From contig SKCR01032777.1 of the NCBI GenBank assembly GCA_019454045.1, positions 124,001 through 188,000 on the forward strand: a DNA stretch of 64,000 nucleotides. The letters run 5' to 3'. Every line of letters begins with the position of its first letter. The first letter of the stretch is position 1. The notes beneath the pieces were generated by a model. It searched no databases and had not been told where the DNA came from. It saw nothing but the letters and a program-made list of their open reading frames with translations. Below are positions 4,846 through 37,630 of this stretch, in pieces. Position numbers and translations under genes: made by a program. Origin of the DNA: Zanthoxylum bungeanum (lineage: Eukaryota > Streptophyta > Magnoliopsida > Sapindales > Rutaceae).

Positions 4846-5331
4846 TGATGAGTGGTAATTATATCACTATTTCTCATTCATTTAACCTAATATTTTATAT
4901 AGTTTCTCATGTTTTATGAATGTTTTGATGTGTTTTTGTTTATTTTGCATATAAAAATAATATTGGGACTTAATGGAATCAACTCGGGGCTAAAACGATG
5001 AAATCCGGAGCAAAAAAAGTCAAAAATGAAAATTTACTGTAGCGTCACGAAGTGCAGTACTAAATTCTAATTTTTCCCAAGTTTGGTATTTTGGCCATAA
5101 CTTTTTCATCCGATATCCGATTGAGCTGATTCCAGTTTCAGATTAACGAAGACTCAAAGATCTACAACTTTGAAATTTTAAATATTTTCGTATTCCGAAG
5201 TTTACTAGACCGAAATTAACGAATAATCCAATGTGTTTTGTATAATTACTAAAGTCATTATCAAAAAAATAAAAAAAAAATGGAAAATGACAATTTACAA
5301 TTGTCAAACTTCCACATAATATGATTGCAAG

Positions 5332-5452
5332 TTTGGTGGAGTATTTTGTGGAGTGTCTTGTGGCATGTTTGGTGGAGTATTTGGTGGAGGATTTTGTGGA
5401 GTGTTTGGTGGAGTATTTGGTGGAGCAATTGGTGGAGAAATTGGTGGAAGCC
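5332..5452 (+). repeat. 12-bp GGTGGAG minisatellite in U3
   Basis: About ten units of the type tttggtggagta. Because 12 is a multiple of three the run stays open as a Leu-Val-Glu-rich reading frame, but it ends on the TATA box and is most simply a promoter-proximal repeat. It is present again at about 11092-11214 and, reversed, at 34440-34540. Confidence 0.75.
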
Positions 5453-5633
5453 TTTAGATTTTCCTATAAATACCAAGCCATTTCATTTGTAATTCTCATG
5501 CTTTCCTTAGGTTTTTGTAAGGAATTTAAGGATTGTATATTGTTTGTATTTATTTTCAAAATTTAATTTATGCATTTTTATTTTCAGTAATAGTAGTAGT
5601 TTATTTTCTTTTATGTTTTGTAGTTAATTTTCC

Positions 5634-5992
5634 GCTGAGGGAATGATGAAGCTTTTATTATTTTAGTTTAGATTAATCTCCCTTAATTATAATATGGAAA
5701 TTATAATTTAACATAAAAGGTTATACTGCCTTAATGGCTGGTTTTATTTATTTGACATAATGTGACACCGCCTATATGGTCGGTCTTTATGTGACAGATG
5801 ATTACCGCCTATATGGCTGGTTTATGGACAAATAATGATACCACATTTATGGTCGGTCGGACTTAATTAAAATATGACTTAATGAGGATATCGCATATAT
5901 GGCTGGTTGGTAATATCACTGATAAATTCTATATTATAGTAAGAGAGATTTCTAAATTAGTAATAGTAAATGTGGATCCCCAACCCCCAACA
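5634..5992 (+). repeat. Inverted repeat with five hairpin units (element 1 5' LTR)
   Basis: The left arm has agattaatctccc followed by ttaattataatat, and the right arm carries ctatattatag and gagagatttct, its imperfect complement. Between them are five units such as caccgcctatatggtcggt and taccgcctatatggctggt. Within a unit ACCG can pair with CGGT or, with a G-U pair, TGGT, and CC with GG around a TATAT loop. Confidence 0.75.
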
Positions 5993-6725
5993 TTTTATTT
6001 TTATTTTAGGGAAGTGATGAAACACAATATTCACACACTTAATAATTGATTTTCTTTTTATGGACAATTCTTTAGTTTGTTTATTGAGTCTTAAGCTTAA
6101 TGCTTCTTATTAATTGGCCATTAATAAGATTATTTGGTAAACTTAAAATGAACTTGACGAATGGATTTTAGGTTTTAGCCTTAGATTCAATAGCCCACGA
6201 TCTTTCTTGAGAATAGATAACCCTTTAATAGATTTCCTTACAGGATAGACATATACCTATTGGGTGGGGTAGCCACTTTTGGAACTTGAACTTAATGAAT
6301 TCAGGTAACTTGGTTGACATAGACATATGATTAATTGAGTTATTTGAGTATTTGCGTCTGACCATCGACATAGGCTTTTGCATATCTTCGTGTTTCAGGT
6401 TAGTAAACTGATTTATTACATATATATATAAGAGAATCAATTCATCTTTAGGATAATATTGTGTGGAATCACAACCTTAGATCTTTGTGTCTTTTATTTA
6501 TTTTTCTTATTATTTTCTTTTATTTATTTTATTTAAGGAAATCCACATTCAACCAACCAAAATCAATCATTCTCTTCTCCATTAATTAGATACTTGTAAA
6601 TAAATAGTATCAATAATTAATAACAACTGTAGGAATTAAGTCCTCAAGGGATCGATATTTTTTTACTACTTGAACGATTCGTGCGTTTATGTTATACACG
6701 TGTGATTACACACCGGTCATATTTT

Positions 6726-6743
6726 TGGTGCCGTTGCTGGGGA
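6726..6743 (+). other. tRNA-Asp primer-binding site
   Basis: TGGTGCCGTTGCTGGGGA, six bases after the LTR, is the Athila-type PBS complementary to the 3' end of tRNA-Asp with two changes. The unmutated form occurs on the minus strand at 33205-33222. Confidence 0.85.
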
Positions 6744-6856
6744 CTTATTTTTCTTGAGTTATTAATTTTGAAGCTATCTAATTTACTTGTATATAATTTT
6801 CTTTATTTTTATTTGTAATTTTTATTTCTTTCTTTTATTTTTCAGGTGGTTGAAAA

Positions 6857-7408
6857 ATGGAACATTATTGGGAGATAGAAAGATTACGAGCTTTACTAGA
6901 AGAAGATACACCCCAATTTAGGGAGCAACAGTCCGGTTTTGTGAGGCCTGTTGTCTAGCCCAACAACTATCACTGGATGCCAGAACCAAGCAATACTACA
7001 TTTTCTCAATAGAACGCAATAGGGAGATGTGTAATTTGTGATGGTAACCACCCGAGTGATCAATGTATATACCTTTCAGAATGACAGAATTATCAGAATC
7101 ATTCACGGTACGAAGAACCAGCATATTTCACTGAACCTTATTATCCATCTTATCCACCATCCACCTACAATTTTCATCAAGAACAAGAATCATCAGAGGA
7201 ATATCAGTTGATTGGCATGTTCAAAGATTGGTTCAAGGAACGAGAAGCTCAAATTGATGCACAATTTCAGAGTCAAACGAAATCCATACAGAGAATGACA
7301 GATCAAGTTAGACAATTAACAAATAACCTGAATCACATATCTCACAGAGCAAATTCAAATAATATTGAAGAAGCCTTCGATATCCTGAGATTCATCACGA
7401 CATCATAA
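6857..7408 (+). pseudogene. Element 1 gag remnant
   Basis: The ATG at 6857 follows a pyrimidine-rich stretch and CAG (ending 6845) that could serve as a 3' splice site. The frame starts MEHYWEIERLRALLEEDTPQ and hits a stop after about 33 codons. Further on are a short zinc-knuckle-like CVICDGNHPSDQC and, at 7208-7408, a coiled-coil-like segment (FKDWFKEREAQIDAQFQ, then IQRMTDQVRQLTNNLNHIS) typical of the gag C-terminus of Athila/Tat elements. Several stops and frame changes make it non-functional. The start segment is shared with the minus-strand gag at 32949-33093. Confidence 0.65.
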
Positions 7409-7494
7409 CAGAGGACGAGCCTGAGCAGTATCAAGAATAAGAGGTATCAATTTAGGAGCCCAAACCAACAAAGTATCTATTTGATTTTTATTAT

Positions 7495-8274
7495 TTGGAC
7501 TCTGACGAGGATGATGAAGTGGAGCTGTTTGTACCAACAAAAACTGAGGACAAAATTCTCTATTCTCAAAATGAAGATCTTGGAGATTTTATTGCACAAG
7601 TGTTTGAAGAAGATCTACCTGAGTCAGTCATATCAGAGGATGAAGACCTAAAATCAGACATCTATTTACATCCTCAGGTTGACACTTATGGAGCATGCAT
7701 TTCACATATGACAGATGAAGAGCTGAATGAGGAAATTTTAAAATACATATGTGAAGAAAAGGTGGAGCAAGAAATAGAGAAAATGGAGGAGCAAAAGTCT
7801 GACCATATTAAAGATCTTGGACATTCAAAAGAAACATCACTGTTTTGGGGAGTACAAATCAAAGATATCACCCAGAATCTTGACAGAATGGAACTCCCAT
7901 TCCAAGTCAAGCACTATACGAGACCTTCTGATTTTCTTTCTTTCTTTTTAGGAACCACTGGAGTGACAAAGATTAAAAAGGTGGCACAAGCACTGAATGA
8001 GACAAAATTCTTTTTGCCACTTTACCGTTGGAAGAGACCCTTCAAAAGCAATGCTCATTGGATTGTCTTTAATCGGACATCCAAAACCACGTTGAAACCT
8101 ACAATAACAGATGGATTTCACTCACGTCTGGCTGAAGATGAAAAATTTAGCCCTAGCAGGGAGGCAACCCATGCAATTTGTTTTAATGTCTATTTTTATA
8201 TTTTGTGTATACATGTTGTAGAATTTTTAATTTTGTGTGATATTTTCAGGGAAAAACACAAACAGAGCATTTAA
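7495..8274 (+). CDS. Acidic ORF of unknown function in element 1
   Basis: A 259-codon frame with a very acidic N-terminal half (Asp/Glu-rich to about residue 115; includes HMTDEELNEEILKYICEEK) and a more basic end (about residues 155-205, TKIKKVAQALNE...RWKRPFKSN). It occupies the place where pol should be but has no D-T/S-G protease, YxDD or DDE motif. The last 35 or so residues run through the conserved post-pol hairpin, so the real C-terminus is probably upstream of 8120. A strong pyrimidine tract plus AG at about 7929-7952 could be a splice acceptor. I do not recognise the family; it may be a rearranged gag-pro segment. Confidence 0.4.
   Translation: MDSDEDDEVELFVPTKTEDKILYSQNEDLGDFIAQVFEEDLPESVISEDEDLKSDIYLHPQVDTYGACISHMTDEELNEEILKYICEEKVEQEIEKMEEQKSDHIKDLGHSKETSLFWGVQIKDITQNLDRMELPFQVKHYTRPSDFLSFFLGTTGVTKIKKVAQALNETKFFLPLYRWKRPFKSNAHWIVFNRTSKTTLKPTITDGFHSRLAEDEKFSPSREATHAICFNVYFYILCIHVVEFLILCDIFREKHKQSI
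8125..8186 (+). other. Conserved post-pol hairpins (element 1)
   Basis: CGTCT-ggctga-AGATG (8125-8140, last pair G-U) is followed by an agccctagca spacer and GGGAGGCAACCCATGCAATTT. The same block follows the coding part of element B (16465-16513) and element 2 (36752-36815). Confidence 0.65.
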
Positions 8275-8567
8275 GGTAAAACAAGATAAGAGGAATGGTG
8301 TTTGGCAATCACAAAGATGAAAGCTAATTCATTAGTGATGGCTGAGTAATGAATGAATTATTGAGACGCATCATAATAGATTTATACCAAGCGAGTAGCG
8401 GATTGCGTACACAATTCTGCTGCCTTAATAATTATTTTGATTTGCTTTTATTTTGTTATTTGCTTTTATTTTCACCGACAAGATCTATATTTTTTGACTT
8501 TCGCAATTTATTTTAACGTTCATTGTCATTTGATAGGTACTAGTGCTATTTTTACTCACCATTTTCA

Positions 8568-8580
8568 GGATCTATAAATT
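8568..8580 (+). promoter_or_regulatory. Splice-acceptor-like and TATA-like signals before LOG
   Basis: An attttcag acceptor-like site ends at 8568 and TATAAATT lies at 8573-8580, about 42 bases before the LOG ATG. The same pair occurs before the second LOG copy (AG at 37618, TATAAATT at 37623-37630). The words ctataaattca and actc resemble the core promoter of LTR G (42318-42331). Either a spliced subgenomic RNA or an internal promoter could express the cargo. Confidence 0.5.
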
Positions 8581-8621
8581 CAACTCGTCATTCAGATAAA
8601 CATCCAAATAAGAGAGAGAAA

Positions 8622-9274
8622 ATGGAAGCAACTTCACAACAACGAGTCATTAAAATCTGTGTGTTTTGTGGATCTAACTCTAGAAATAAACCAGAATTCG
8701 TTGAGGCTGCAAAGGAATTTGGGAGAGTTATAGCAGAACGAAATATGCACCTAGTATATGGCGGTATAAATCTTGGATTGATGGGAAGCATTTCAAAAGC
8801 CGTTCAGGAGGGTGGCAGTCACGTTTTGGGAATCATTCCAAAAACTTTGGCGGACGAACATATAATCGGAAAAATAAATGGAGATGAACGCATTGTCTCG
8901 GGTATGTCTGAACAACTCCTTGAAATGGTCAAAACTGCTGATGTTTTTATTTCTTTACCAGGTGGGCTAAGAACATTTGAAGAGATATTCACGGTGGCAT
9001 CATGGGCGCACTTGAACATTCATCGGAAGCCCATTGGATTACTTAACATTGATCAATTTTTCGATTTTCTGTTTGTATTTCTTGCGGAAGCCAAAAGACA
9101 TGAGTTCGTCACAAATCAATACAAGATATTTTCCTGGCTGCAACAAAGGCTGAAGAATTAATTGACCAAATCCTAGCCTTTAAACCAAAAATCTACCTCA
9201 TTCTTTACAAGTTAAACTGGTCAGATAGCGATCGTGGAAAAAAGCATAAATTGGACATAGATCTTAATCGGTAA
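8622..9274 (+). pseudogene. LOG: LOG-like cytokinin riboside 5'-monophosphate phosphoribohydrolase carried by element 1
   Basis: LOG enzymes release active cytokinin bases from their riboside monophosphates in the cytosol. The frame from ATG 8622 matches the family along its length: CVFCGSNS near residue 12, LVYGGINLGLMG near 45, GIIPKTL near 70, the SGMSEQLLEM segment near 93, SLPGGLRTFEE near 111, and the LNIHRKPIGLLNID block. The main frame stops at 9161 (179 aa) because of a one-base loss near 9123; the remaining LOG tail (AATKAEELIDQILAF...DIDLNR) continues in another frame to 9274. Plant LOG genes have several introns; this copy has none, so it was probably captured from an mRNA. Damage at key sites: the third Gly of VYGGG is Ile, the Arg of the MxxR motif is Gln, and the second Gly of PGGxGT is Arg. 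Probably inactive now. Confidence 0.88.
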
Positions 9275-9337
9275 TTTTTCGTAGAATTTCAGCTAACCAG
9301 GTATTATCTTCTAAACTCATCTTCTACTTTTTCAGAC

Positions 9338-9376
9338 ATTGGGGACAATGTCTCATTTAGGTTTATGGGGGAATAG
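9338..9376 (+). other. Conserved GGGGACAATG / G-rich motif
   Basis: cattggggacaatg followed about 20 bases later by a G-run (tatggggga). The counterparts are 16729-16762 in element B and 38406-38440 in element 2. Its position after the last ORF and its purine-rich second half suggest an internal polypurine tract or 3' regulatory signal. Confidence 0.45.
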
Positions 9377-9827
9377 TTAATAGTATCTTGTTTTTATTGT
9401 GTTATTTTTAGTCCAAATTTTTTTCGAAAAATACAAAAAAATTGAAAATTTTTACAAAAAATTAAATTTTTTTTTTTGTGTTTTTGTTTTTAACTTGATT
9501 AATCAGGTGAAATTGGTGAGAGATAGCTGTGTAAGGAGTTTCCACTATTGATACGTATCTCGAACCCATTTTCGAAACAAATTATTATTTTTTATTTCCT
9601 TTTGAATTATTTAATTTGTGAATTCTCCATAAAACTGACTAAAATGAATATTCATATGCTCAGTTGGCAGGTATTATCAACATGCATGGTAACATATGGA
9701 CATGAGCTATAATTGAAAAGTTTGTAATATTCAGTGCTCTAGTTTAATTGGAGGAAGCATCTATAAATGGCAATGGAGTAAAAAAAAATAGAAAAAGAAA
9801 AAAAAGAAAAAAAAGTGTGCAAAAAAA

Positions 9828-10063
9828 TCTGAGATCCGAGTTATTAAGTTCGTAGGTGTGTTTTAACACCTAGTGCCATAAAACCAACTGGTTTGGGAGC
9901 CATCGGCCCAAAGCTCGCTACATGGATCGAAGATGTTGCAAAAAATATATATATATGAAGTCTGAGTAATTAAGCACGTATGGGTGTCTTAACACATGGT
10001 GTCCTAAAGCCAACTGGTTTGGGAGCCACCGAACTAAAGCTCACTACATAGATGGAAGATATT
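9828..10063 (+). repeat. 133-bp tandem duplication in element 1 3' region
   Basis: Two diverged copies begin tctgag at 9828 and 9961. Both keep ccaactggtttgggagcca, aaagctc, ctacat and ggaagat. Both also keep a small hairpin near the start: GGTGT/ACACC at 9855-9870, and GTGT/ACAC in copy two. Non-coding. Confidence 0.75.
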
Positions 10064-10410
10064 GTATATAAATAAAAAAAATCAAAAAATCAAAAAAAAT
10101 TATTCCATTGCTACAAAAATATGTGAATTCTGATAAAACTTTAGGACAAAAATATTATACTCTTCTCAACTGCACTTGTGACTATTGTGGGAAAAATGAG
10201 TTGATTAATATTTTGTTGGCTGTGTATATGGAGAATGGTAAAAATAATCGGAGAATTTACTTATTCGGTAATTTAGAAAGAAACAAAATAATTATTGACT
10301 TGGATAAGAAGTTTCACATGTTTAGTCACTAACTTTTTTATTCTATTTTCTCTTGTCTTTTTGCTTTTGTGTGCATTAGTTTTATTATCTTTTTACTTTT
10401 ATCAAACGTT

Positions 10411-10523
10411 TGTGGGTATCGTTGCTGCAAGCCCTCACGAGACTACAACTCGTCCACTATGGATACCTAGGGGTTTAAAGGCTTGTTGCATACGCTAAAT
10501 GCAATCGTGATCTCTACGAAAGT
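10411..10523 (+). other. Structured 3' module shared with element B
   Basis: About 110 bases closely match 17606-17719 in a different element. Stems seen by eye: GGTATC 10415-10420 with GATACC 10462-10467; ACGAG 10437-10441 with CTCGT 10449-10453; TTGCAT 10486-10491 with ATGCAA 10499-10504; and a possible crossing pair AAGCCC 10429-10434 with GGGTTT 10471-10476. The first stem is GGTGTC/GACACC in element B, a compensatory change. Confidence 0.65.
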
Positions 10524-10583
10524 GGGTTAGTTTAATGATTTATTGTATTTTATTTTATTGTTTTGCTCGAGGACTAGCAAAAT

Positions 10584-10599
10584 GTTAGGTTTGGGGGTG
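10584..10599 (+). other. Polypurine tract of element 1
   Basis: gttaggtttgggggtg immediately precedes the TGATGAG start of the 3' LTR, the expected site of plus-strand priming. Confidence 0.7.
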
Positions 10600-12488
10600 T
10601 GATGAGTGGTAATTATATCACTATTTCTCATTCATTTAACCTAATATTTTGTATAGTTTCTCGAGTTTTATGAACCTTTTGATGTGTTTTTATTTATTTT
10701 ACATATAAAAATAATATCGGGACTTAATGGAATCAACTTGGGGATAAAACGATGAAATCTGGAGCAAAAAAAGGTCAAAAACGAAAATTTATTGTACGTG
10801 TCACGAAGTGCAATCCTAAATTCCAATTTTGCGCAAGTTTGATATTTTGGCCATAACTTTTTCATCTGATATCCAATTGAGCTGATTCAAGTTGTAGATT
10901 AAAGAAGTCTCAAAGATCTACAACTTTGAAATTTTACATAGTTTCGAATTCTGTAGTTTTCCAGTCTGAAATTAACGAATAATCGAATGTATTTTGTGTA
11001 ATTACTAAAGTCATTATCAAAAAAATAAAAAAAATTGGAAAATGACAATTTACAATTTACAATTGTCAAAATTCCACAAAACATGCTTGCATATTTGGTG
11101 GAGTGTTTTTTGGAGTGTCTTGTGGCATGTTTGGTGGAGTATTTGGTGGAGGATTTTGTGGAGTGTTTGGTGGAGTATTTGGTGGAGCAATTGGTGGAGA
11201 AATTGGTGGAAGCCTTTAGATTTTCCTATAAATACCAAGCCATTTCATTTGTAATTCTCATGCTTTCCTTAGGTTTTTGTAAGGAATTTAAGGATTGCAT
11301 CTTGTTTGTATTTATTTTCATAATTTAATTTATGCATTTTTATTTTCAGTAATAGTAGTAGTTTATTTTCTTTTATGTTTTGTAGTTAATTTTCCGTTGA
11401 GGGAAGGGTGAAGCTTTTATTATTTTAGTTTAGATTAATCTCCCTTAATTATAATATGGAAATTATAATTTAACATAAAAGGTTATACAGCCTTAATGGC
11501 TGGTTTTATTTATTTGACATAATGTGACACCGCCTATATGGTCGGTCTTTATGTGGCAGATGATTACCGCCTATATGGCTGGTTTATGGACAAATAATGA
11601 TACCGCCTTTATGGTCGGTCGGACTTAATTAAAATCTGACTTAATGAAGATATCGTATATATGACTGGTTGGTAATATCATTGATAAATTCTATATTATA
11701 GTAAAAGAGATTTTTAAATTAGTAATAGTAAAGGTGGATCCCCAACCCCTAGTATTTTATTTTTATTCTAGGGAAATGATGAAACACAATATCCACACAC
11801 TTAATAATTTATTTTCTTTTTATGGACAATTCTTTAGTTTGTTTATTGAGTCTTAAGTTTAATGCTTCTTGTTAATTGGCCATTACTAAGATTGATTTGG
11901 TAAACTTAAAATGAACTTGACGAATGGATTTTAGGTTTCATCCTTAGATTCAATAGCCCACGATCTTCCTTGAGGATATATAACCCTTTAATAGATTTCC
12001 TTACATGATAGACATATACCTGTCGGCGAGGGTAGCCACTTTTGGAACTTGAACTTAATGAATTTAGGTAACTTGGTTGACATAGACATATTATTAATTG
12101 GGTTATTTGGGTATTTGCGTATGACCATCGACAGAGGCTTTTGCATATCTTCGTGTTCCAGGTTAGCAAACTGACTTATTACCTATATATATATATATAA
12201 GAGAATCAATTCATCTTTAGGATAATATTGTGTGGAATCACAACCCTAGATCTTTGAGTCTTTTATTTATTTTTCTTAGTATTTTCTTTTATTTATTTTA
12301 TTTAAGGAAATCCACATTCAACCAACCAAAAACAATCATTATCTTCTCCATTAATTAGATACTTGTAAAAAAATAGTATCAATAATTAATAACAACAATA
12401 TGAATTAAGTCCTCGTGGGATCGTTATTTTTATACTACTTGAACGATACGTGCGCTTGCGTTATACACGTGTGATTACGCACCGGTCA
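10600..12488 (+). repeat. Element 1 3' LTR
   Basis: 1889 bases, same ends and internal order as the 5' LTR: GGTGGAG minisatellite (about 11092-11214), TATAAATA (11227-11234), inverted-repeat arms about 11396-11460 and 11690-11755 around five hairpin units, and the terminal CACCGGTCA. Followed by ctctt, the right TSD. Confidence 0.85.
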
Positions 12489-12879: not shown

Positions 12880-14275
12880 TGATTACTGCACTTTGAAACA
12901 TCACTTATTCTATTTTATTGTTCGATATTTAGTTCTATATATCATATTTTATTATATAATTTTTATCATTATATTAATTTAGAAAGTATTTATTATTTAA
13001 GTTAATTTAGTAATTTTCCCTTTATAGGAATTGGAAGCTTTGACCAAATTGAGAGCATTAAAGAAGAAACTTGTTGACTATTTGAAATTGAATTGGAAAA
13101 GCACACGTGGGCCAAGCTTGTTTACAAAAGAAAGAAGACAAATTGCTTGGAGGAAAAAAAGAATAAGGCATGGAGTGGGCCAAGAGAGAGAGACTGAGTT
13201 AATTAAGTTTACCAACTTAAAAAAGGAAAGCAAAGAAGAATAATGCATGTGGAAGAAGAGAGAAAGAAGTAGCAAACTTGGACCATGCATTCACGTGGGC
13301 TATTAGGTTTCAAACTTTGTTGGCCATGCAAGTGAATATGTGCTACCGTGAATATATATAAACTAAAGCCGGTTTCAGCGAAAGAGGGGGAGCAGCCTGG
13401 GCATAATACAAAATCAAGAGTTGCTGCCGAGAAACAAAAAGAACTAAAACCAGCAGAGGCCGAGAGCTGCGCATAATACAACAAAATTAGAAGCAGGCCG
13501 AGAGTTGGAGAGAAGAAATCAGAGCGCAGAAGCCGAGATGCGGAGCAGCAATAATTCAGAACGACATGTCTCTCCAATCCCAGGCTATCTTTATTTCTTT
13601 TATGGAGAACTAATCTCCTAGGCAAAGTTAGGGATGAATTCTTGTGTTTGATTTTTATTATTTATGTTTTTGATTTCCTAAGTACTTTTTATCGTTTAAT
13701 AAAATTAATGTTTGTTATTCTTTATTATCCTTCGATTATTTAGCCCGGAAATTATGTTTTGTCAAATCCTATATAGATCCAGTCATGCTTCTTCTATGTG
13801 TGGTTTGCGATTTCAGTTGTGACTGGTAAAGTTATTTTGCGTGTTGGTCTTTTGCTGCAATATTGCTTCAGGGTATATTATCGACGTTAGATAACTCGTA
13901 ACAATGACTTTTGTGTGACGTTAACATAGAGAAAATAATCATTAATTACCTTAGAATTTGAATATGTGTAGAATTGAATATCTTCCGGTTGTTGGTTTGA
14001 GATGTGAAACCTTCAATTGTGTAATAAAAGGAATCAATAATTGAATATAGGAATTTGATGCAAGAAGGATTCTCGATGCTTTGCCATACCTCTCTACTGA
14101 TATCTCTACGAATTTATCTATAGTTTCTACTTTAATTACCAATTCTATCGTTTTCTTTATTTTAGTTATTGCTTACATTTTGTTTGAGTAAATTAGTTCT
14201 GTTGTAACCTTCTCTCTGAGGAATCGACACCCCAACTATACTGTGATAACCGCAAGTCATATTTGGGCGTAATCA
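12880..14275 (+). repeat. Element B 5' LTR
   Basis: Aligns with 17819-19165 over its length. Relative to the 3' copy it has lost about 11 bases near the start and retains about 60 bases around 13065-13130 that the 3' copy lacks. A TATA-like tatatataaac lies near 13353. Open frames on the minus strand here are accidental. Confidence 0.8.
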
Positions 14276-14280
14276 AAATT

Positions 14281-14298
14281 TTGCGCCGTTGCCGGGGA
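14281..14298 (+). other. tRNA-Asp primer-binding site of element B
   Basis: TTGCGCCGTTGCCGGGGA, five bases after the LTR, with one mismatch to the Athila-type PBS. Confidence 0.88.
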
Positions 14299-14508
14299 GA
14301 CGGTTTACAAGCAAAATGAGTAGGTTTACTTAGTCACCAACAAAGCGGTAACTTCGTTCCTTATCCTTTTTTTTATTATTTTATTTATTATTATTATTTT
14401 TTTATTTCTAGTATTTAGTTTATTTATTTTATTTCAACTTTAGTTTTTAGTTTATATTTTTTATTACGCATTTTTTTTTTGTTTCCCGTATTACTTGAGT
14501 TTAATAGC

Positions 14509-16278
14509 ATGCCTAGACGTAGTGATAGGTTTGGTAGGTTTGTTAGGACTAAAGAAGAAAGCTCAGATTCTGAGAACATATTTGAAAATCATTTTTCCAC
14601 ACCATCTGTGTTTAGCGCACATAATATGAGTGAATACGAGAGACCACATAGGAGAACTCTTGAAGAGTCCTCCACCCCACTCGCACAACTACATCATCAT
14701 GCATCATGTTTCCTCCTAATGCACCACATATAGACTTTAGGCCTGAAATGATATAGCATCTCCCAACTTTTCACGGTTTAGAGAGCGAACATCCTTATGT
14801 GCACATTAGAGAGTTTGAAGAGGTTGTAACGACTTTCCATGACCGGTTTGGAACCACTGACATAATTAGACTTAAGTTATTCCCATTTACCTTTAAAGAT
14901 AGAGCTAAAAGCTGGTTATATTCTCTAAGACCGCGATCAATAGGATCATGGGGTGAGATGACACATGCATTCTTTAAAAAATACTTCCCCACCATAAGAC
15001 GAATGCCTTGAAAAGACAAATCTCCACCTTCTCCAAGATAGACAGTGAAACCTTTTATCAAACATGGGAAAGGTATAAGGAGATGTTAGCTAGTTGCCCT
15101 CACCATGGATATGAGAGTTGGCGCTTAGTAAGTTATTTTTATGATAGTCTAACCCCTAGAGAGCGCTAGTTTGTTGAGACTATGTGTAATGGTGAGTTTA
15201 TAAAGAAAGACCCCGATGAGGCATTCGAGTATTTAGATGAACTAGCTGAGAAATCTCGTACTTGGACTGGACCCAATGCCTTAGATAACATTGATAAGAC
15301 ACACACTTCTTCTAGCAAAAGCATACACCACTTTAGGGAAGATGATAGCCTTAAGGCACAAGTTAAGCTATAAACTAGACATATGAGAGCCTTAATAGCC
15401 AAAGATAGCAAGATGATGTATTTCGTAGCCCAGCTAGAATCCCAAGAGTGCCGGTATATGGTGAGATGAGAGGGACATATGAGGAACAATGCCATGCATT
15501 AGAGACGTACCAAAAGCCTTACACACCTTACTCAGATACCTATAATCCTAGTTGGACGAACCATCCCAACCTTAGTTGGCAGCAAAAGTCTCATCAGCCG
15601 AGTCAAACACCACCTAGAGGTTATAGTGCTCCTCAGTATCACACATCTATCGTTCCTAGGAATTCTTTAGAGGATACTATGCAAGCATTCATAGAAGCCC
15701 AGAAAGCAACTGTAGAGGTCCGGAAGGCAATTGTGGAAGCCTAGAGTAAAACAAATAAAAAGTTTGAGTCATTGATAACTCAGGTCGCTGAAGACCATAA
15801 GGAAATTAGGAGTCAGATCTCTAAATTGACTAATGTCATGAGTGTGCAAAAATAAGGAAAATTCTCATCCCAGATTCAACCTAATCCACTAAGTCAGCAC
15901 ATGGCACATGGTAATCATGAGGTATCCAGTATAAGATGTGTTAATGCCATAATCACTAGGAGCAGTAAGGAGGTAGGCTTGCAGGATACTCCCAAAACTG
16001 TAGGTGACCCTAAAAATAATAGTGCTAACACACCTCAGGAAGAACAAGTGCCACATTTCCAAGTTAAAGTACTTTTCCCACAAGCAATTATGCCCACAGT
16101 GAGAGTTCTAGATCTAAATGTTGAAAAACAATCACAGGGTGAGGGTGAGTGTCATTACTCTTACATGCTAGAAACAGTCCAGCCAGAAATAACTTTTATA
16201 CCACCTGAATTCAATCCTCATGAGCTGAAACTGGTCCCAAAGAACCGAAAAAGGAGAAAAGGAAAATTAGGGCTCAAT
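14509..16278 (+). pseudogene. Element B gag polyprotein, multiply broken
   Basis: Starts MPRRSDRFGRFVRTKEES at 14509. The plant retrotransposon-gag domain follows at 14760-15240: PTFHGLESEHPYVHIREFEE, LFPFTFKDRAKSWLYSL, then across a frameshift near 15000 the block ending YESWRLVSYFYDSL and the ETMCNGEFIKKDPDEAFEYL helix. Next come an NPSWTNHPNLSWQQ proline-rich segment (15540-15590) and a coiled coil near 15770-15850. The protein continues to about 16278 (ITFIPPEFNPHE...), where the pro region would begin. Stops and frameshifts near 14730, 15009, 15168, 15371, 15742 and 15853 prevent a full protein. Gag would package the element RNA if supplied intact. Confidence 0.8.
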
Positions 16279-16464
16279 TAAAAATGATACCTGAGAGATT
16301 AAAAGGGAGGTTGAGCCAACCTTTCCTTATGAGCAGCCCAAGATTTCAACATTCTCCGGACTTAGGAAGATCCATGGATAAACTGCCATAGCTAGTCAAA
16401 AATCTTGTCACATGCCTTCATCAGTACGCTAGATGGAAGCCACCATGAACAATTTAAGTGGTTA

Positions 16465-16513
16465 CGTCTGGTTGAAGACGTTAAACTTAGCGCTAACGGG
16501 GAGGCAACCCTTG
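16465..16513 (+). other. Conserved post-pol hairpins (element B)
   Basis: Perfect stem CGTCT-ggttga-AGACG (16465-16480), then agcgct and GGGGAGGCAACCC, matching 8125-8186 and 36752-36815. Confidence 0.7.
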
Positions 16514-16728
16514 CATCTGCATTTATTTTACTTTATTTTATTTTATTTATTTTAGTTTTATATTATTATGTGCTAATTGCATGTTTATTTTTTCTGTTTA
16601 GATGAGTATTTATGCATGAGTTAGCACAACCTACAGAGCCATATAACTAAAGTCTCACCAGTAGGAACCTGTTCAACTCTGCACCTGGTAGTGTTGTTCC
16701 TTAATCATTTTCTTTATATTTATCTTAC

Positions 16729-16762
16729 ATTGAGGACAATGCAAGTTTTAAGTGTGGGGGTG
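16729..16762 (+). other. GAGGACAATG / TGTGGGGGTG motif
   Basis: attgaggacaatgc, then agtgtgggggtg; counterpart of 9338-9376. Likely a 3' signal of the element family. Confidence 0.45.
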
Positions 16763-17605
16763 TATGCATGCGCATGATAATACTTGTCATAAATACATTT
16801 TTATTTTAAAAAAAATATTTGTTTTTAGTCCTTGATAGTTAAAACATAAGTCCAGTGATGATATTGTTTGTTTTAGGATGAAATCTTAAAAACGATAAGT
16901 TCTTTAATGCACTTTTATCTGATGCTTTGAGTAGTTTATCCATGTTAGACTCGTAAGCACTTAATTATAGGTTTTTAGTAGTGAAAGCCTAAGTATTTGG
17001 CAAAGTGACTAGTTGAAGAAATTGCATATCGATGAATGACCGTTTGCTTAGATTTCTATCCTAATTTTCTTGTGTTATGACGTGTGGTATGGTTGAAAAT
17101 AAAAGAAAAGTCTCTGAAGAAAGAAAATAAACCACCTATAACCGATAAGCATGAAGCTACCCATGGGCGAGTATTAGGACCACCATGAGGAGAAATGATA
17201 CCTTAAAGGGTAGGTGTGTTGGAAAAAAAAAGGAAAAAGAAAAAGTTCAAAAGAAAAGCAAAAAAAAAGGAGACAAGAAAAGAAAAAAAAACATGCCATA
17301 TTGAGCAAAAAAAAGCAACTACAGAGCTTAATCAAGATATCTAGGTTGGTTTGACCTATTGATCCCAATTTTTAAACGAAATCATTGAGTTGACTTACCT
17401 AGGAATCAAGTTGTGAATAAACCTTTACACACACACACAAACTATGAGTCTGGCTTGGATGATTTATTCAATGTCTTGGATTTGAGTTGCGTTGAGTGCT
17501 TTGAAGGTTCTCTGGTTTCATTACTAGACATTCTTTGAGGAAAAAAATTATGTGAAACTATTGGGACTACTTTATTTTATTTTTGCATGTGTTTTGAATG
17601 ATGTT

Positions 17606-17719
17606 TGTGGGTGTCGTCGCTGTAAGCCCTCTCGAGACTATAACTCGTCCACTAGGGACACCTAGGGGTTTAAGGCTTGTTGCATACGCTAAATGTAATC
17701 GTGATCCCTACGAAAGTGT
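17606..17719 (+). other. Structured 3' module (element B copy)
   Basis: Counterpart of 10411-10523. Pairs: GGTGTC 17610-17615 with GACACC 17657-17662; CGAG 17633-17636 with CTCG 17644-17647; TTGCAT 17680-17685 with ATGTAA 17693-17698 (one G-U); possible crossing AAGCCC 17624-17629 with GGGTTT 17666-17671. Confidence 0.65.
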
Positions 17720-17818
17720 CATATATAGATTTTATTTATTTTTATTTATTCAATTTAGTTTTTATTTTATTTTTGCTCTTGAATTGCTAGGGACTAGAAA
17801 TAAGCTGATTAGAGGTTG

Positions 17819-19165
17819 TGATAAGTGCATGAAAATACACTTTGAAACATCAATTATTCGAGTTTATTGTTTGGTATTTAGTTCTATATATTATATTTTA
17901 TTATATAATTTTTATCATTATATTAATTTAGAAAGTATTTATTATTTAAGTTAATTTAGTAATTTTCCCTTTATTATTGTAGGAATTGGAAGCTTTGACC
18001 AAATTGAGAGCATTAAAGAAGAAAGAAGACAAATTGTTTGGAGGAAAAGAAGAATAAGGCATGCCGTGTGCCAAGAGAGAGAGAATGAGTTAATTAAGTT
18101 TACCAAATTAAAAAAGGAAAGCAAAGAAGAATAATGCACGTGGAATAATAGAGAAAGAAGCAGCAAACTTAGACCATGCATTCACATGGGCTATTAGGTT
18201 TCAAACTTTATTGGCCATGCACGTGAATATGTGCTGCCGTGAGTATATATAAACTAAAGCTGATTTCAACGAAAGAGGGGGAGCAGCCTACGCATAATAC
18301 AAAATCAAGAGCTGGTGCCGAGAAACAAAAAGAACTAAAACCAGCAGAGACCGAGAGCTGCGCATAATACAACAAAATTAGAAGCAGGCCGATAGTTGGA
18401 GAGAAGAAATCAGAGCGCAGAAGCCGAGACGCGGAGCATCGATAATTCAGAACGACATTTCTCTCCAATCCTAGACTATCTTTATTTCTTTTATGGAGAA
18501 CTAATCTCCTAGGCAAAGCTAGGGATGAATTCTTGTGTTTGATTTTTATTATTTATGTTTTTGATTTCCTAAGTACTTTTTATCGTTTAATAAAATTAAT
18601 GTTTGTTATTCTTTATTATCCTTCGATTATTTAGCCCAGAAATTGTGTTTTGTCAAATCCCATATAGATCCAGTCATGCTTCTTCTATGTGTGGTTTGCG
18701 ATTTCAGTTGTGACTGGTAAAGTTGTTTTGCGTGTTGGTCTTTTGCTGCAGTATTGCCTGAGGGTATATTATCGACGTTAGATAACTCGTAACAATGACT
18801 TTTGTGTGCTGTTAACATAGAGAAAATAATCATTAATTACCTTAGAATTTGAATATGTGTAGAATTGAATATCTTCCGGTTGTTGGTTTGGGATGTGAAA
18901 CCTTCAATTGTGTAATAAAAGGAATCAATAATTGAATATAGAAATTTGATACAAGAAGGATTCCCGATGCTTTGCCTTTCCTCTCTACTGATATCTCTAC
19001 GAATTTATCTATAGTTTTTACTTCAATTACCAATTCTATCATTTTCTTTATTTTAGTTATTGCTTACCTTTGTTTGAGTAAATTAGTCCCGTTGTAACAT
19101 TCTCTCTGAGGAATCGACACCCCAACTATACTGCGATAATCGCAAGTCATATTTGGGCGTAATCA
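17819..19165 (+). repeat. Element B 3' LTR
   Basis: Begins TGATAAGTGCATG and ends GTAATCA; 1347 bases; TATATATAA at 18244-18252. Matches 12880-14275 with indels. Confidence 0.8.
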
Positions 19166-19474
19166 ATGTCATGTGGCATCGGTTGTGTCGGCAGCTGAAT
19201 TATTGGCTCGGCGTTGCAGCGCTGACATCATCATGATGCAAGAAATAATATGTTTCAATGATGAGTGTCGATAGCATGTGATAATGACACATGTCCAGCG
19301 TACGTTAGCTGATGTGGTGTGATGTTGACATATGATAGGCGTATGTCGGATGATAACAAATTTCTCTGATTGTGACATGTGTCCGGTGTATTTTAGCAGT
19401 ACTGGCGCATGTTAGTGGTCGCGACGCAGAATGCTTGCGCTGTTAGTCTCTAAGACATGCCACAAGATCCTAAA
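19166..19474 (-). repeat. Reversed G-type LTR fragment, right part
   Basis: The minus strand reads gactaacagcgcaag, then ctaacatgcgccag, ggacacatgtca, tatgtcaacatcaca; this matches 41890-42080 of solo LTR G. Continuous with 12620-12879 once element B is removed. Confidence 0.6.
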
Positions 19475-21357: not shown

Positions 21358-21604
21358 CTTGGCCTATAGCCAACCACTCAAGTATCTAACACCTGAACTA
21401 TGTACATATAGCTCAAACTTTTGCTGAGATACAGCCTTCGTCAGCGGATCTGTAATGTTATCATCTGATGCGATCTTTTCGATCTTCACATGGCCACGAT
21501 GTATGATCTCACGAATCAGATGAAACCGTCGAAGTATATGATTGGATCTTTGATGAGACCGTTGTTTCTTAGCCTGTGCTATACCCCTTTATTGTCACAA
21601 TATA
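21358..21604 (-). pseudogene. Copia element F, RNase H C-terminal end
   Basis: The minus-strand translation gives the conserved copia RNase H tail: YCDN, AQAKKQRSHQRSNHI, LRRFHLIREI, and a final D-x-LTKA-like block, with one frameshift near the start. It is cut at 21604 by insertion of element C; the upstream part of the same domain resumes at 30806. Right neighbour is C, left neighbour its own LTR. Confidence 0.75.
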
Positions 21605-23551
21605 TGTTGGGAAACGGCTGCGAGTGCGCAGCGGAAAATTAAAATTATGTGCCGCTTTTCCTTTGCCCAAGACCCATTTGTTTTGATTATTCCACAGGCC
21701 TAGACATGTTACTATATATTCTAAGCATAAAACTCATAAAACATGCGAAGAACATAAACCTAAACATGCTAACTATCATAAGAACTCTAATTAAAATAAA
21801 GAAAGAAAATGACTTACTTGAACCGAAGACTCTTCCATCCTCCCTCCAATCTACCAACTTTTCTCGAACTCAGCAAGCTCTTCCATGTTCCAAAGAGCCA
21901 CCCAAGTGTGTGGCCTCGAAAGTTGCACACACCAAAGCCAAAACTCAACGGCAAGACTATGCCTTGAGTGCACATGTATTTTGCCCTTGGTGCTAGCCTA
22001 GACAAATACCTCAAAACTTTTAACTCGAGGTTCCTCTAGTCAATTAGACTTAAGGATCCTCAAAATCAGTGGCTTACTCTTAAACTTTAGATTTGCTCAC
22101 TTATATAAACCCAAGATATGAGGTTTGGTTTGGCAAAGATTAGTGAAGTATTCTTTGGGTTTATATAGTGCTCCAAAGACAACAAAGTTAATTAAGAATC
22201 TGATGATGTGGGATAAAAGCTAATTTAATCTTAGCCATTGGATCTTAATTTAGTGGTTTAATGAGATTATAAAACCCTAATAAGAGTTTGGGCCGAATTG
22301 GAATTCAAAACAAATAAAAAAAAAAAATTTGCTATTCATGAGTTACTATTCACGTGCATAGTAACCTTATTTTTATTATTCCAATTCCCAAAGTGCCCCT
22401 ATCGTCATTCACCAATACTTAGGCCACTATGGAACCTCATAAATGATCTGTTCAATAATTAAACACATTGAACCATTTATGAACAAGTCCTACAACAATC
22501 ATATATGCTGTTAAAATGTATCGTGCACAGTTAACCATTGATTTCGACTTTGTTGTGTGTGACCTTTTGGGTTCCCCTCAAGTTGGACATGAAATGAATC
22601 GTGATAATCTAATCGAACATAAATTATCCTCCGATCAGATGGTCGTTCGATTTCAATGACCAAGGTTGACATGTAGCAACATGCCAATGCCCCCAAATGA
22701 GAAGGAAAGATATATATACCCATTCTATATGCGATTTACATATGATATGGTCCATCGCCTCACTATATCCCCACTTATTGACCTAGGGTATGGAAAGTGT
22801 CTACCCATATGGTCAAAGGTATGATGTTGATAGTGTCATGAATCATGCTAACCCAAGAATCTCACATGATTCTTCCGCTGTGGCCACAGTCTCAAGTACT
22901 GATCACACATATCAACCCGCGAACTGGAATACTACTCTTATAAGAAAATATTATCTGAGAGAGTGGCGATTCTCTGTTGTATCTTTACAAGCTTCATGTG
23001 TTTCAACAAATGACCCAATCATACCCTTATGACTAGATCTTTTGAACCAGGAAGGAGAATGTCAAAGTTATTTGATCCACACATAAGATTGTAAAGACCT
23101 CAAGTCTAAGGACTAGTCATATAATCGATACATGAAAGTTCTCACAAACCAATGGGATAAACACTCCATATGAAAACTTTCGGCGGTCAGTTTGATGGAC
23201 ACGAGCAACTCATGCATCCATGTGATACACCAAGCGGACGGAGCTCCGCTAGTAGCTTATGAGATCGGCTACCCCACTTAAAGGGTGAATCATATCATCA
23301 TGGTAGTCTCTCTGCTTTGTGAACGCCCATGTTATTCACAAAACTATGACTAGGAACATTTAAGAGTAATGATTCTCATAAGGCGTGGAAGCCATCGTCT
23401 TATTACTCCAAGGGCTTTATTTCAGTGTTGATGATTCATATAAGTTATGTAATACACGTATAATAAAGATTGCCATTTTATTAATGAAAATATTACAAAT
23501 ACATGTATATATAGCCCATCCACAAGTTGGGTATAGGGCATATTTCTAACA
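21605..23551 (-). repeat. Element C 3' LTR
   Basis: On the minus strand TGTTAGAAATATGCCC ... CCGTTTCCCAACA. Preceded on that strand by the purine tract gaaagtgggaga. Closely similar to 28835-30800 and 49260-51212. Confidence 0.9.
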
Positions 23552-23565
23552 ATCTCCCACTTTCA

Positions 23566-25383
23566 CTATAGCCAACTAGTATGAATCTGGACACCATACT
23601 CTCGGGTGTGCCTATCATGCTTTTGTTGAGTCAGCCCTTTAGTCAGAGAATCTGCAAGATTATCTTCTGTGGGTATTTTCTCTATAATAACTTCTTTTCT
23701 CTCAACAATCTCTCTGATGAGATGAAATAGCCTGAGTACATGCTTGGATTTTTGGTGGGACCTTGGTTTCTTTGATTGAGCAATGGCGCCCGTGTTGTCA
23801 CAGTACATCGTGATGCCATTCTTTATCGTGGGAAGCACTTCCAGTTCCATGATGAACTTCTTTATCCAGACTGTTTCTTTAGCTGCCTCAGATGCATTAA
23901 TATACTCGGCTTCAGTGGTGGAGTCCGCTGTAGTTGACTACTTTGAGCTTTTCCAACTGACAGCACCGCCATTCAAAGTAAACAGATATCCTGCTTGCGA
24001 TCTGTTGTCATCCCTATCGGTCTGAAAGCTCGCATCATAGTAACCAATGACTTTCATCTCAGAACAGTCTCCGTATGTCAAAAACATATCCTTAGTTCTT
24101 CTTAGATACTTGAGGATTGTTTTGACAACTGCCCAGTGTTGCTCACCAGGATTTGCCTGATACCTGCTCGTTATGCTAAGAGCATAAGAGACATCAGGTC
24201 TTGTATATAGCATGGCGTACATGATCGATCCTATTGCTGAAGCATAATGGATCATACTCATACGCTCTCTATCTGAAAGAGTATGTAGACATTGCTCCTT
24301 AGATAATTTGATTCCATGACAAGTAGGTAAATTACCTCTTTTGGAATCTTCCATTTTGAATCTTTTCAAAACTTTATCTATCTACGTAGATTGAGAAAGT
24401 CCTAACAACCTCTTAGATCTATCACGGTAGATCTTAATGCCGAGGATGTAGGCTGCTTCTCCCAAATCTTTCATGGAGAAATTCTGAGATAATCATTGCT
24501 TGGTGGCTTGCATCATGGGAATGTCATTCCCGATGATTAATATGTCATCGACATATAATACAAGAAAGGCAACAGCATTCCTACTACTTTTCCTATAAAG
24601 ACAAGGCTCGTCTATATTTTTGATGAAGTCAAATTCTTTAATTGTCTCATCAAATCGTATATTCCAACTTCTGGAGGCTTGCTTGAGTCCATAAATGGAT
24701 CATTTAAGCTTGCATACTTTATTATGATCATCCTTAGATGCAAACCCCTCAGGTTGTGTCATATAGACTTCCTCTATGAGGTTCCCATTAAGAAAAGCTA
24801 TTTTGACATCCATCTGCCAAATCTCATAATCAAAGTGTGCAGCTAGTGCCAGTAAAATTTGAATGGACTTTATCATTGCAACATGCGAGAAGGTTTCCTC
24901 ATAGTCAATTCCTTGGATTTGTATATAACCTTTCGCCACCAACCTAGCCTTATAGGTTTGGATGTTGCCTTCTACATCAGTTTTACGCTTGTAAATCCAC
25001 TTGCAGCCTATGGGTTTTATCCCTTCAGGTGCATCTACCAAGTCCCAGACTTGATTCTGATACATAGAGTCTATTTCGGATTTCATGGCCTCAAGCCACT
25101 TGACTGAATCAATGTCATGCATTGCTTCGTCATAACTGGTGGGATCGTCATTATCAATGACCTGATCATGTTCCTCATCAATATGGAAACCATATCTTTC
25201 AGGCTCATGTCTTTCCCTACCAGACCTTCTGAGTTCATAACCTTGTGGTTGTTCCGTCGCTGCCCTTTTGAGGGGCCTGGGGTTTAGTTCTATGTTAGTT
25301 TGTTCTTCTCGTACCTCATCGAGGTCAAGTCTACTCCCACTATATTTCTTGAGAAGGAATTCATTCTCTAGAAATTTAGCATT
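23566..25383 (-). pseudogene. Element C reverse transcriptase and RNase H
   Basis: The RT block enters near 25122 (MHDIDSVKWLEAMKSEIDSM; W-DLVDAPEGIKPIGCKWIYK) and includes AFLNGN and the active-site [12 protein letters not shown] (around 24520-24560). RNase H follows: the YTRPDVSYALSI region, SKQ/ADSTTEAEY-type segment, MYCDNTGAIAQSKKPRSHQK, and the tail DNLADSLTKGLTQQKH near 23600. Stops near 24698, 24480 and 24385 and one before 23930 interrupt it, and the Asp residues of YVDD are intact. Same family as C2 at 51227-53376, which is better preserved. Confidence 0.88.
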
Positions 25384-26463
25384 TCATGAGACAAATGTTC
25401 TTTGTTCATTTGGGACGTAGAACATGTATGCTCTTGAGTTCAAGGCATATCCTACAAACTTACATTTAACTGCCCTATCATCCAATTTGTTAGTTTGTAT
25501 GAGCTTGACATATGCGCCGCATCCCCAAAATCTTAGATAACTAAGACTAGAACATTTCTCAGACCATAACTCATATGGTGTTTGACTAACAGTCTTGGAA
25601 GGAACTTGGTTTAGTAGTAGTGTTGCAGTTTCTAAAGCAAGACCCCAAAAAGAAAGAGGTAGATCCGTGCCTGGCATCATTGATCGAACCATATCTAATA
25701 ATGTCTGATTTCTCCTTTTGGAGACCTCATTATGCTGTGGAGTTCCCGGAGGAGTCCACTGGGAAACAATGCCATTTTCTCTCAAGTAATCTTGAAATTC
25801 GTTGCTTAAGTATTCACCACCTCGATCAGACCTTAGTGACTTAATACTTTTATTAAGCTATTTTTCTACTTCAGCTTTGAAGTCTTTGAATTTCTCAAAG
25901 GCTTCAGATTTGTACCGCATAAGGTACACATACCCATATCGCGAGTGATCATCGATAAAGGTAATGAAGTAGGAGAATCCACCTCTAGCGGTGACTGACA
26001 TTGGTCCGCATACATCAGAGTGTATGAGTTCTAATGTCTCCGCTGCACGCTGTCATTTACCTTTGAAGGGTAATTTGGTCATTTTACCAAGTAAACAAGA
26101 CTCACAAGTTCCATAAGGTTTAAATTTGAAGGGTTTGAAATACCCATCCTTATGTAGCTTAGTTAATCTTGTTTCATTGATATGGCCTAAGCGACTGTGC
26201 CATAGAAGTGATTCATTGAGATTATTCGAGTTAACGTTGTATATATTAGAGGTTGAACATTCTTTGTTAGTTTGTAAGACATAGATACCATTATTCAAAA
26301 TACCATCTCCATATTTTGTTTCATTGAAATAAATAGAACATTCATTACAACTTATTAGGCATGAAAAGCCTTTATTACATAAAGAAGAAATTGAATTGAT
26401 GTTCTTTACTAGAGAAGGTATATAAACACAATCTTCTAAGTCTAAAACTAAACCATTCGGCAA
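25384..26463 (-). pseudogene. Element C integrase
   Basis: The GAG-pre-integrase zinc-binding part is visible (WHSRLGH ... CESCLLGKMTKLPF, about 26090-26210), then the core: HSDVCGPMS near 26010 with the first catalytic Asp, LRSDRGGEY near 25825 with the second, and TPPGTPQHNEVSKRRNQT near 25730. In the last motif the usual catalytic Glu (SERRNQT in the family) reads Lys, and the preceding Gly is Glu. There are stops at about 26050 and 25860. This domain could not integrate DNA. Confidence 0.85.
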
Positions 26464-26790
26464 AACTAATGATTAAGTCCCCACGCACAATGCAGCCAGT
26501 TGCTCCATTACCCATGCGTAAGTCAACCTCCCCATGACGGAGTCTCCTACTGTTTCTAAGGCCCTGCACATTGTTACACAAGTGAGTCCTACAACCGGTG
26601 TCAAGCACCCAAGTAGAAGGTTCAGAGTTTTGAGAATATAGTTCAATCATATACAACATACCTGAAGCATTGGGCTTCTTGGCCTCTTAGGCTTCCCTAG
26701 CTTCCTTGGCTTTCAAGGATCTGCAGTCTTTCTTCGAATGACCATTCTTTCCACAAAAGAAACATTTCATCTTCCCCTTTTTGTTCTTCA
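26375..26790 (-). pseudogene. Element C zinc knuckle and protease
   Basis: The CCHC knuckle CFFCGKNGHSKKDC (about 26727-26770) ends Gag. The aspartic protease motif WVLDTGCRTHLC follows at about 26577-26612. A stop between them (near 26685) and frame changes break the polyprotein. Confidence 0.82.
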
Positions 26791-26891
26791 TCTTACCATT
26801 GGGCTTTAGGTGATCTGGAGCCTTGCCCTTGCCCTTATTTTTCTTTGGGCCTCATGGCTTCAGGTCCGTACCCGTAAGCATGACGGAGGTT

Positions 26892-32948: not shown

Positions 32949-33093
32949 AAATGTAATTGCTTGGTACTGACATCCAGTGGTAATTGTTGGGCTGGACAAC
33001 ATGCCTCAGAAAATCGGACTGTTGCTCCCAAATTTGGGGTGTATCTTCTTTTAGTAAAGCTCGTAATCTCTCAATCTCCCAATATTATTCCAT
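32949..33093 (-). pseudogene. Gypsy gag N-terminal fragment
   Basis: The minus-strand ATG at 33093 is followed by a stop at codon 3, then YWEIERLRALLKEDTPQ, the homologue of the element 1 gag start at 6857. It runs about 48 codons and ends at the junction with copia F. Confidence 0.75.
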
Positions 33094-33204
33094 TTCAACC
33101 ACCTGAAAAATAAAAGAAATAAATAAAAATTACAAATAAAAATAAAGAAAATTAGATACAAGTAAATTAGATAGCTTCAAAATTAACAACTCAAGAAATA
33201 TAAG

Positions 33205-33222
33205 TCCCCGGCAACGGCGCCA
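33205..33222 (-). other. Perfect tRNA-Asp primer-binding site
   Basis: The minus strand reads TGGCGCCGTTGCCGGGGA, an exact complement of the tRNA-Asp 3' end, six bases beyond the LTR. Confidence 0.92.
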
Positions 33223-33228
33223 AAAACT

Positions 33229-36815: not shown

Positions 36816-36879
36816 TATTCAGATTTGGTGTGTTTTATTTTTTTTTGTTTAATTTATGTAGGTAAGTCACATTTCAGGA

Positions 36880-37617: not shown

Positions 37618-37630
37618 GGTGCTATAAATT
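37618..37630 (+). promoter_or_regulatory. Splice-acceptor-like and TATA-like signals before second LOG
   Basis: cccttttcag ends at 37618 and TATAAATT lies at 37623-37630, 59 bases before the ATG. Conserved with 8568-8580. Confidence 0.5.

Follow-up and report, generated by a model that had tools for sequence, protein, structure and literature searches.

LOG proteins are a plant enzyme family that activates the growth hormone cytokinin, and Steinbauerova et al., in Genetica in 2011, reportedly came across LOGL4-like sequence in two elements of Athila-like type. A YgdH (LOG) domain is recorded in gypsy consensus elements of Citrus sinensis and C. clementina and, with the filter off, of Populus trichocarpa, in the available text of a study that cites a 2011 survey for LOG-domain gypsy elements (PMC9289625). 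Such elements are already known; what we add here, for a family seen in a 64,000-nucleotide (nt) stretch of the Zanthoxylum bungeanum genome (contig SKCR01032777.1 of assembly GCA_019454045.1, positions 124,001–188,000, forward strand; ‘the window’), is selection on the LOG frame, a change in its substrate pocket, its amplification, and a virus-like neighbour. The original prediction for this stretch was not aware of a described LOG-carrying Athila element; given the Citrus and Populus reports in the available text (PMC9289625), LOG carriage by a gypsy element is no novelty in itself. Among the titles and abstract openings listed from the open-licence literature, LOG plus a virus-like open reading frame (ORF) in a long terminal repeat (LTR) element was not found; the terms ‘cytokinin’ and ‘lonely’ are absent from the accessible part of a 2026 review of plant gene capture (PMC13317346).

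Whether the additional ORFs seen in plant LTR elements serve a function is a question raised in the available portion of PMC6317226. Many are functionally unexplained; here, one falls into an enzyme family that has been studied in depth, its structures solved and its substrates established, and this membership, together with protein-level constraint and named pocket changes, makes its function directly testable. The best full explanation, to which we assign a probability of roughly 75%, is that a Ty3/gypsy (Athila-like) family carries the LOG-like frame as one of its standing genes.

The LOG-like frame and its element

The frame lies within what we term element 1, the parts of which are as follows.

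4846–6719, + strand: 5' LTR, with ends TGATGAG...CCGGTCA; 93.07% identical to 10600–12488
6726–6743, + strand: primer-binding-site (PBS)-like sequence after the 5' LTR
7085–8271, + strand: gag-like remnant and unassigned ORF; gag called by eye, without a database match
8161–8170, + strand: landmark GAGGCAACCC; recurs at 16501 and 36792
8549–8568, + strand: candidate splice acceptor (..TACTCACCATTTTCAG), 53 nt 5' of the LOG ATG, with no intervening ATG
8622–9161, + strand: LOG-like ORF of 179 codons, its C-terminus lost by frameshift; matches PF03641, TIGR00730 and AtLOG3
9104–9274, + strand: displaced C-terminal part of LOG, in a different frame; the tail extends to 9271, with the stop at 9272
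9341–9350, + strand: landmark GGGGACAATG; recurs at 38409 and, in the form GAGGACAATG, at 16732
10600–12488, + strand: 3' LTR, paired with 4846–6719

The 8622–9161 frame matches Pfam PF03641 with an E-value of 6.5e-26 (91.5 bits, cut-off 27), NCBIfam TIGR00730 with 9.7e-37 (126.4 bits, cut-off 96.35) and AtLOG3 (2a33) with 1.8e-44; the last alignment is gapless across 160 residues, and that stretch of the window LOG therefore contains no intron. The intron-free 179-codon frame of the original prediction is borne out, with the correction that the C-terminal part of LOG lies in another frame. Against the cytokinin-phosphoribohydrolase equivalog NF058542 the score is 92.4 bits (cut-off 300), as obtained with the truncated window copy alone and without a plant-LOG control. 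Gln replaces the catalytic Arg in this copy and one Gly of PGGxGT is also changed; a single-sequence AlphaFold model of the ORF (mean predicted local distance difference test score 50.9) is too poor for use.

The LTRs of element 1 (Kimura two-parameter distance, K2P, 0.065) confirm the pair claimed at 4846–12488; the target duplication that was to accompany them is imperfect, with CTTTT on the left and CTCTT on the right (four of five matching). A purine tract lies immediately 5' of the 3' LTR, and the PBS-like sequence is of a type that we take to be tRNA-Asp. We could not recognise pol in the forward frames of element 1, nor with Pfam on three of its ORFs; element 1 is a pol-less derivative with a now dead LOG, and the predicted slot ‘after pol’ is true of some relatives rather than of this copy. 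Assignment to Ty3/gypsy is supported by the LTRs, PBS and purine tract of the window, plus the pol order reverse transcriptase (RT)–RNase H–integrase found within a single 909-codon frame in a relative (L027; loci of the source genome are given L numbers). Athila ORF-1 (PF03078) gave no match among the scanned ORFs of the window and relatives, a result that is not decisive because no more than 16% of Athila elements carry ORF-1, according to the part of PMC6317226 available.

The window holds a second LOG copy, overlooked earlier, which shows that the first is no isolated case, and also a related element that serves as a control.

37689–38334, + strand: second LOG copy (element 2), broken by a stop and frameshifts; PF03641 E-value 5.5e-24 on the 37892–38185 piece
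36873–37446, + strand: broken ORF of element 2, upstream of LOG, resembling the nucleic-acid-binding protein (NABP)-like ORF of relatives described below; tblastn with the L013 ORF, E-value 1e-73, three pieces
12889–19166, + strand: element 3, a related LTR element in which a LOG search found nothing; landmarks 231 bp apart

Positions 8429–9514 align to 37476–38574 at 73% identity, the flanks of both LOG copies being homologous element sequence; the landmarks GAGGCAACCC and GGACAATG are kept beside both, at a spacing of 1180 bp in element 1 and 1617 bp in element 2. The second copy is the more damaged, and is without one Gly, different from the one changed in the first.

LOG-bearing elements across the genome

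We searched the source genome (3,956,113,105 bases in 51,709 contigs) with PF03641 and retained the 150 best-scoring places, a lower bound; the 47,331 first-look candidates are unscored, and are not copies. All 150 are uninterrupted, with 149 covering profile positions 1–131 and one 1–130, and 147 are stop-free. Twenty pieces fetched from these places all contain LOG, and 18 match the LTR family of the window, so that the LTR-flanked copies which the original prediction proposed to look for elsewhere in the genome were indeed found. Eight usable repeat pairs around LOG have K2P values of 0.019–0.043, less diverged than the LTRs of element 1; borders were set by script, and some (L021, L029) extend past the LTR. 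RT, RNase H or integrase domains lie upstream of LOG at four of eight loci (L018, L019, L023, L027; 10 ORFs scanned); the single ORF scanned at L012 gave no domain match, and for L013, L014 and L025 the Pfam scan was limited to the LOG-adjacent ORF. At L012, L022, L024 and L029, an LTR match or PBS occurs within ~2 kb upstream of LOG, which therefore leaves no room for pol. At L020 we also see a unit of ~3.6 kb repeated upstream of LOG, holding an NABP-like ORF and landmarks. LOG has multiplied together with the gypsy-type LTR element that carries it, a conclusion supported by these data.

A 66-residue AtLOG3 probe, aimed at host exons, returned at least 150 places at 57–63% identity, apparently element copies. 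A motif reading of 28 loci, several overlapping the 20 pieces, took the plus strand only, with 12 skipped and L032 lacking the motif. Scans of viral contigs found no relative; a genome-contig scan gave three bacterial LOGs at 37–41% identity.

The host’s own LOGs are separate from those of the elements. A host-motif pattern finds 26 sites in the genome (reversed control, 0), and at the one site that was read, L052, three pieces match AtLOG3 at 88.6, 100 and 100% whilst another piece runs through an intron, all of them within ~2.2 kb; this AtLOG3-like host gene is split by introns. The element does not, then, merely lie beside a host gene. Identity to AtLOG3 is 52–54% for two intact element copies and 44–48% for the window copies, and in an unrooted tree the element LOGs split from plant and bacterial references on a branch of ~0.45 substitutions per site (support 100). 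A plant donor is likely on this sequence evidence but unproven, because the intact copies are nearly as close to a Pseudomonas-type LOG (5zbj; 49–51%) as to AtLOG3. The earlier notion of a host LOG mRNA captured and then amplified is upheld as regards multiplication with the element; the long branch and the constraint described next leave a recent or simple capture unsupported.

Constraint on the LOG protein

Between the two window copies, the proportion of differing silent sites (pS) is 0.583 and that of replacement sites (pN) 0.190 (Fisher 1.4e-14), a pattern confined to the LOG frame; none of 2000 neutral simulations reached so low a ratio. The displaced tail shows this pattern as well (Fisher 0.0005; 12 of 2000 simulations as low), with a plain codon-position test of the tail not significant (p 0.3). 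Fourteen of the 20 fetched pieces were taken for codon comparison and L025 was dropped for a misplaced start, leaving 13 (L016 and L019 end early, at 189 codons; L021, L023, L024, L028, L030 and L031 were not entered). Amongst these score-selected copies, all but one of the 78 pairs have a ratio of replacement to silent substitution rates (dN/dS) of less than 0.5, with a median of 0.25 and a largest value of 0.99.

Both window copies shift frame in the same short interval and the tail looks constrained, for which reason programmed frameshifting was considered. It was dropped: RNA folding downstream of the shift is unremarkable (z 0.39 and -0.51), and in intact genome copies a single frame covers both body and tail. 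The shifts of the window copies may stem from one shared lesion or from two hits at one spot.

Active site and pocket

In CgLOG, Arg99 and Glu122 are catalytic, Gly116, Gly118, Thr119 and Glu121 are among the AMP-binding residues, and Met96, His97, Lys100, Glu125 and Trp129 form the prenyl site; in a mycobacterial LOG, prenyl-site differences are tied to different cytokinins (available text of PMC4979012). Transferring this numbering by alignment with four reference LOGs, we see that all 13 intact genome copies keep PGGxGTxxE, the catalytic pair Arg98 and Glu121, and Gly115, Gly117 and Thr118. At the prenyl site, Met95 and Trp128 are likewise kept in all 13, His96 is changed to Ser and Lys99 to Leu throughout, and Glu124 is replaced by Ile in 12 copies and Thr in one. 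With moderate confidence, we consider a nucleoside-monophosphate hydrolase of altered base specificity more likely than straightforward activation of cytokinin, as judged from these aligned residues. The proposal that a hormone-activation gene had been spread is not supported, given the replacement of three pocket residues and the defects of the window copy.

The C-terminal tail of the element LOGs (L013, L015, L017, L018 and L027, for example) carries a basic stretch and an INLDLNL ending; we take these to resemble a nuclear signal and an EAR-type repression motif.

A virus-like neighbour and possible expression by splicing

In some relatives, LOG adjoins a second accessory ORF resembling the nucleic-acid-binding proteins of carlaviruses and vitiviruses; three exceed the Pfam cut-offs for Viral_NABP or Carla_C4.

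L013, 4690–5289: NABP-like ORF between pol and LOG
L014, 4763–5320: NABP-like ORF between pol and LOG
L025, 4648–5286: NABP-like ORF between pol and LOG

A related ORF, partial in some cases, lies between pol and LOG in 13 of the 20 fetched pieces and also occurs in element 2; tblastn with the L013 ORF did not reveal it in the other seven, nor in element 1. The 37103–37324 frame of element 2, taken alone, has no Pfam match. Amongst six long ORFs of this slot, including the three above, Viral_NABP is matched by six and Carla_C4 by five at E-values of 0.001 or below, the best being 7.1e-07 with moderate scores, and dN/dS is at most 0.50 in all 15 pairs (median 0.36; copies chosen as open frames). 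The ORFs encode a basic stretch followed by C-x2-C-x4-C-x3-C. Carlavirus proteins combine a basic motif with a zinc finger, and those of two potato viruses suppress RNA silencing whilst that of chrysanthemum virus B does not (PMC3689765, available part). The match is short and of moderate score, which makes homology to carlavirus NABP no more than likely. The neighbour adds another protein open to test, and raises the possibility that genes have passed between plant RNA viruses and retroelements.

An acceptor-like site stands 51–75 nt before the LOG ATG in 18 of the 20 fetched copies, each of the 18 with an ATG-free leader; both window copies show such a site, again with no ATG between. The two copies outside the pattern read, by eye, ATTCAG (L030) and CAAG (L028). 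For Bagy2 of barley, the accessible text of PMC7264820 describes an ORF downstream of pol that is expressed through splicing.

In our best explanation, LOG would occupy the slot that follows pol and precedes the 3' LTR, which in other elements of this kind holds an env-like ORF, and would be translated from a spliced subgenomic RNA, as suggested by the recurrent acceptor-like site and by the LOG start being the first ATG after it. The protein would act as a phosphoribohydrolase on a nucleoside 5'-monophosphate, with a substrate that has moved away from the one used by host LOG, and this activity, in dividing or germline-lineage cells, may aid multiplication of the element. More tentatively, at slightly less than even odds, we propose a two-gene module: a carlavirus-like zinc-finger NABP and a LOG-derived hydrolase with a rebuilt pocket, both constrained and present at very many places in the genome. 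If true, such a module would act on host silencing/transcription and on nucleotide/cytokinin metabolism, as the accessory proteins of plant RNA viruses do.

Alternative explanations

The idea that the element landed next to a LOG gene of the host, or next to a processed pseudogene, has the intron-free frame in its favour and nothing more; it is refuted by the second LOG with homologous flanks, and by the genome pieces (LOG in 20 of 20, the LTR family in 18) set beside an intron-split host gene. Were LOG instead a neutral passenger, a host mRNA captured once and copied without function, the broken state of both window copies would be expected, and LTR elements with captured genes are indeed described (PMC3726574, in the text available); against this, silent changes in the window pair outnumber replacements roughly three to one per site, almost all pairs of the score-selected genome copies agree, and full-length frames persist on the long branch, making the idea highly unlikely. 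The pS of 0.58 between the window LOGs, far above the divergence of their flanks, could be taken to mean that two different host LOGs entered the same slot of two elements separately. Yet the element LOGs of the window and those of the genome have residues in common at which both AtLOG3 and AtLOG8 differ, split from all references with full support on an unrooted tree, and coexist with a host LOG that is AtLOG3-like; we regard two captures as most improbable.

A more serious contender holds that the element LOG would be an ordinary cytokinin activator, converting riboside monophosphates to free cytokinin, with the extra cell division benefiting the element. Membership of the LOG family speaks for this, as do a plant LOG as the best solved-structure match and the residues kept in every intact copy, namely PGGxGTxxE, both catalytic residues, Met95 and Trp128; on the other side, the three prenyl-site residues replaced in all 13 are invariant in the four reference LOGs, and the mycobacterial precedent (PMC4979012, available text) links differences at just this site to different cytokinins. 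We consider this reading less likely than not.

Several points weigh against our own explanation, that of a standing gene with a shifted substrate. Membership of Athila is drawn from the PBS type and the landmarks rather than from an RT tree. The LTR match is missing in two of the 20 pieces; ten are without a repeat pair within reach, and two further pairs were dropped (L014, misaligned, K2P 0.33; L020, K2P 0.05, resembling a tandem duplication). Genome copies were picked by high Pfam score, which biases intactness up and dN/dS down; the window pair escapes this bias but amounts to a single comparison, and neither of its copies is intact. Its flanks are more alike (identical at 151 of 187 and 199 of 228 positions) than the silent sites of LOG, suggesting that the flanks are constrained, as signals, or recombined. 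Finally, a bacterial LOG (L002) also lacks the prenyl-site His, having Met there; the His change alone therefore says little about substrate.

Other features of the window

Remnants upstream of LOG in element 2 read by eye as protease and an integrase tail, for which Pfam gave no match; downstream lie a copia RT fragment (RVT_2, 8.6e-26) and the following.

41694–43717, + strand: LTR-related sequence downstream of element 2

At 32948–35011, an LTR on the reverse strand, joined to the start of an internal region and a PBS (33222, minus strand), abuts the gag-like part of element 2, suggesting an insertion or inversion. Both LTRs of element 1 contain a 12-bp minisatellite (TTTGGTGGAGTA type, 9.8 copies; 5332–5448 and 11094–11210) that stays open in frame as LVEYLVE-like repeats, and a 126-bp tandem duplication (1.8 copies) occupies 9838–10064, between LOG and the 3' LTR. 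Elsewhere there is a 5.2-kb repeat pair (21601–26814 and 49256–54472, 92.8% identical; part repeated at 28835–30800) that includes a copia-type pol ORF (RVT_2; minus strand, 52474–53376), as well as a 2.5-kb direct repeat (54476–56995 and 60984–63488, 94.5% identical).

Comparison with known systems

Like the LOG-domain elements of Citrus and Populus (PMC9289625, available text), the family described here is of gypsy LTR type and has a domain of the LOG family outside the canonical set; the comparison is with their description rather than their sequence, and the accessible part of that study describes no selection, pocket residues or virus-like neighbour. The orchid gypsy elements with an N6-methyladenosine (m6A) RNA demethylase domain, covered in the same text, are a parallel in that gypsy gained an enzyme domain, the enzyme being different. 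In having gypsy pol in relatives, the family resembles plant elements, those of Athila type among them, whose 3' part holds an env-like or other additional ORF, and it shares with env-bearing plant elements an acceptor-like site before that ORF, as spliced env-like expression would require (PMC6317226 and PMC7264820, both as available). Unlike Athila-type elements with an env-like ORF, its extra ORF is a LOG-family enzyme frame, and the scanned pieces show no Athila ORF-1 match.

With AtLOG3 (2a33) and AtLOG8 (1ydh), the element LOGs share family by sequence and, in intact copies, the catalytic Arg and Glu and PGGxGTxxE; they differ in being ~44–54% identical, intron-free and changed at three of five prenyl-site residues. 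The neighbouring ORF, as in the cysteine-rich nucleic-acid-binding proteins of carlaviruses (PMC3689765, available part), has Pfam matches to that family and a basic stretch ahead of a finger with four cysteines, whereas its finger spacing departs from the C-x2-C-x9-C-x4-C of potato virus H given there, and the protein is longer and encoded by an LTR element.
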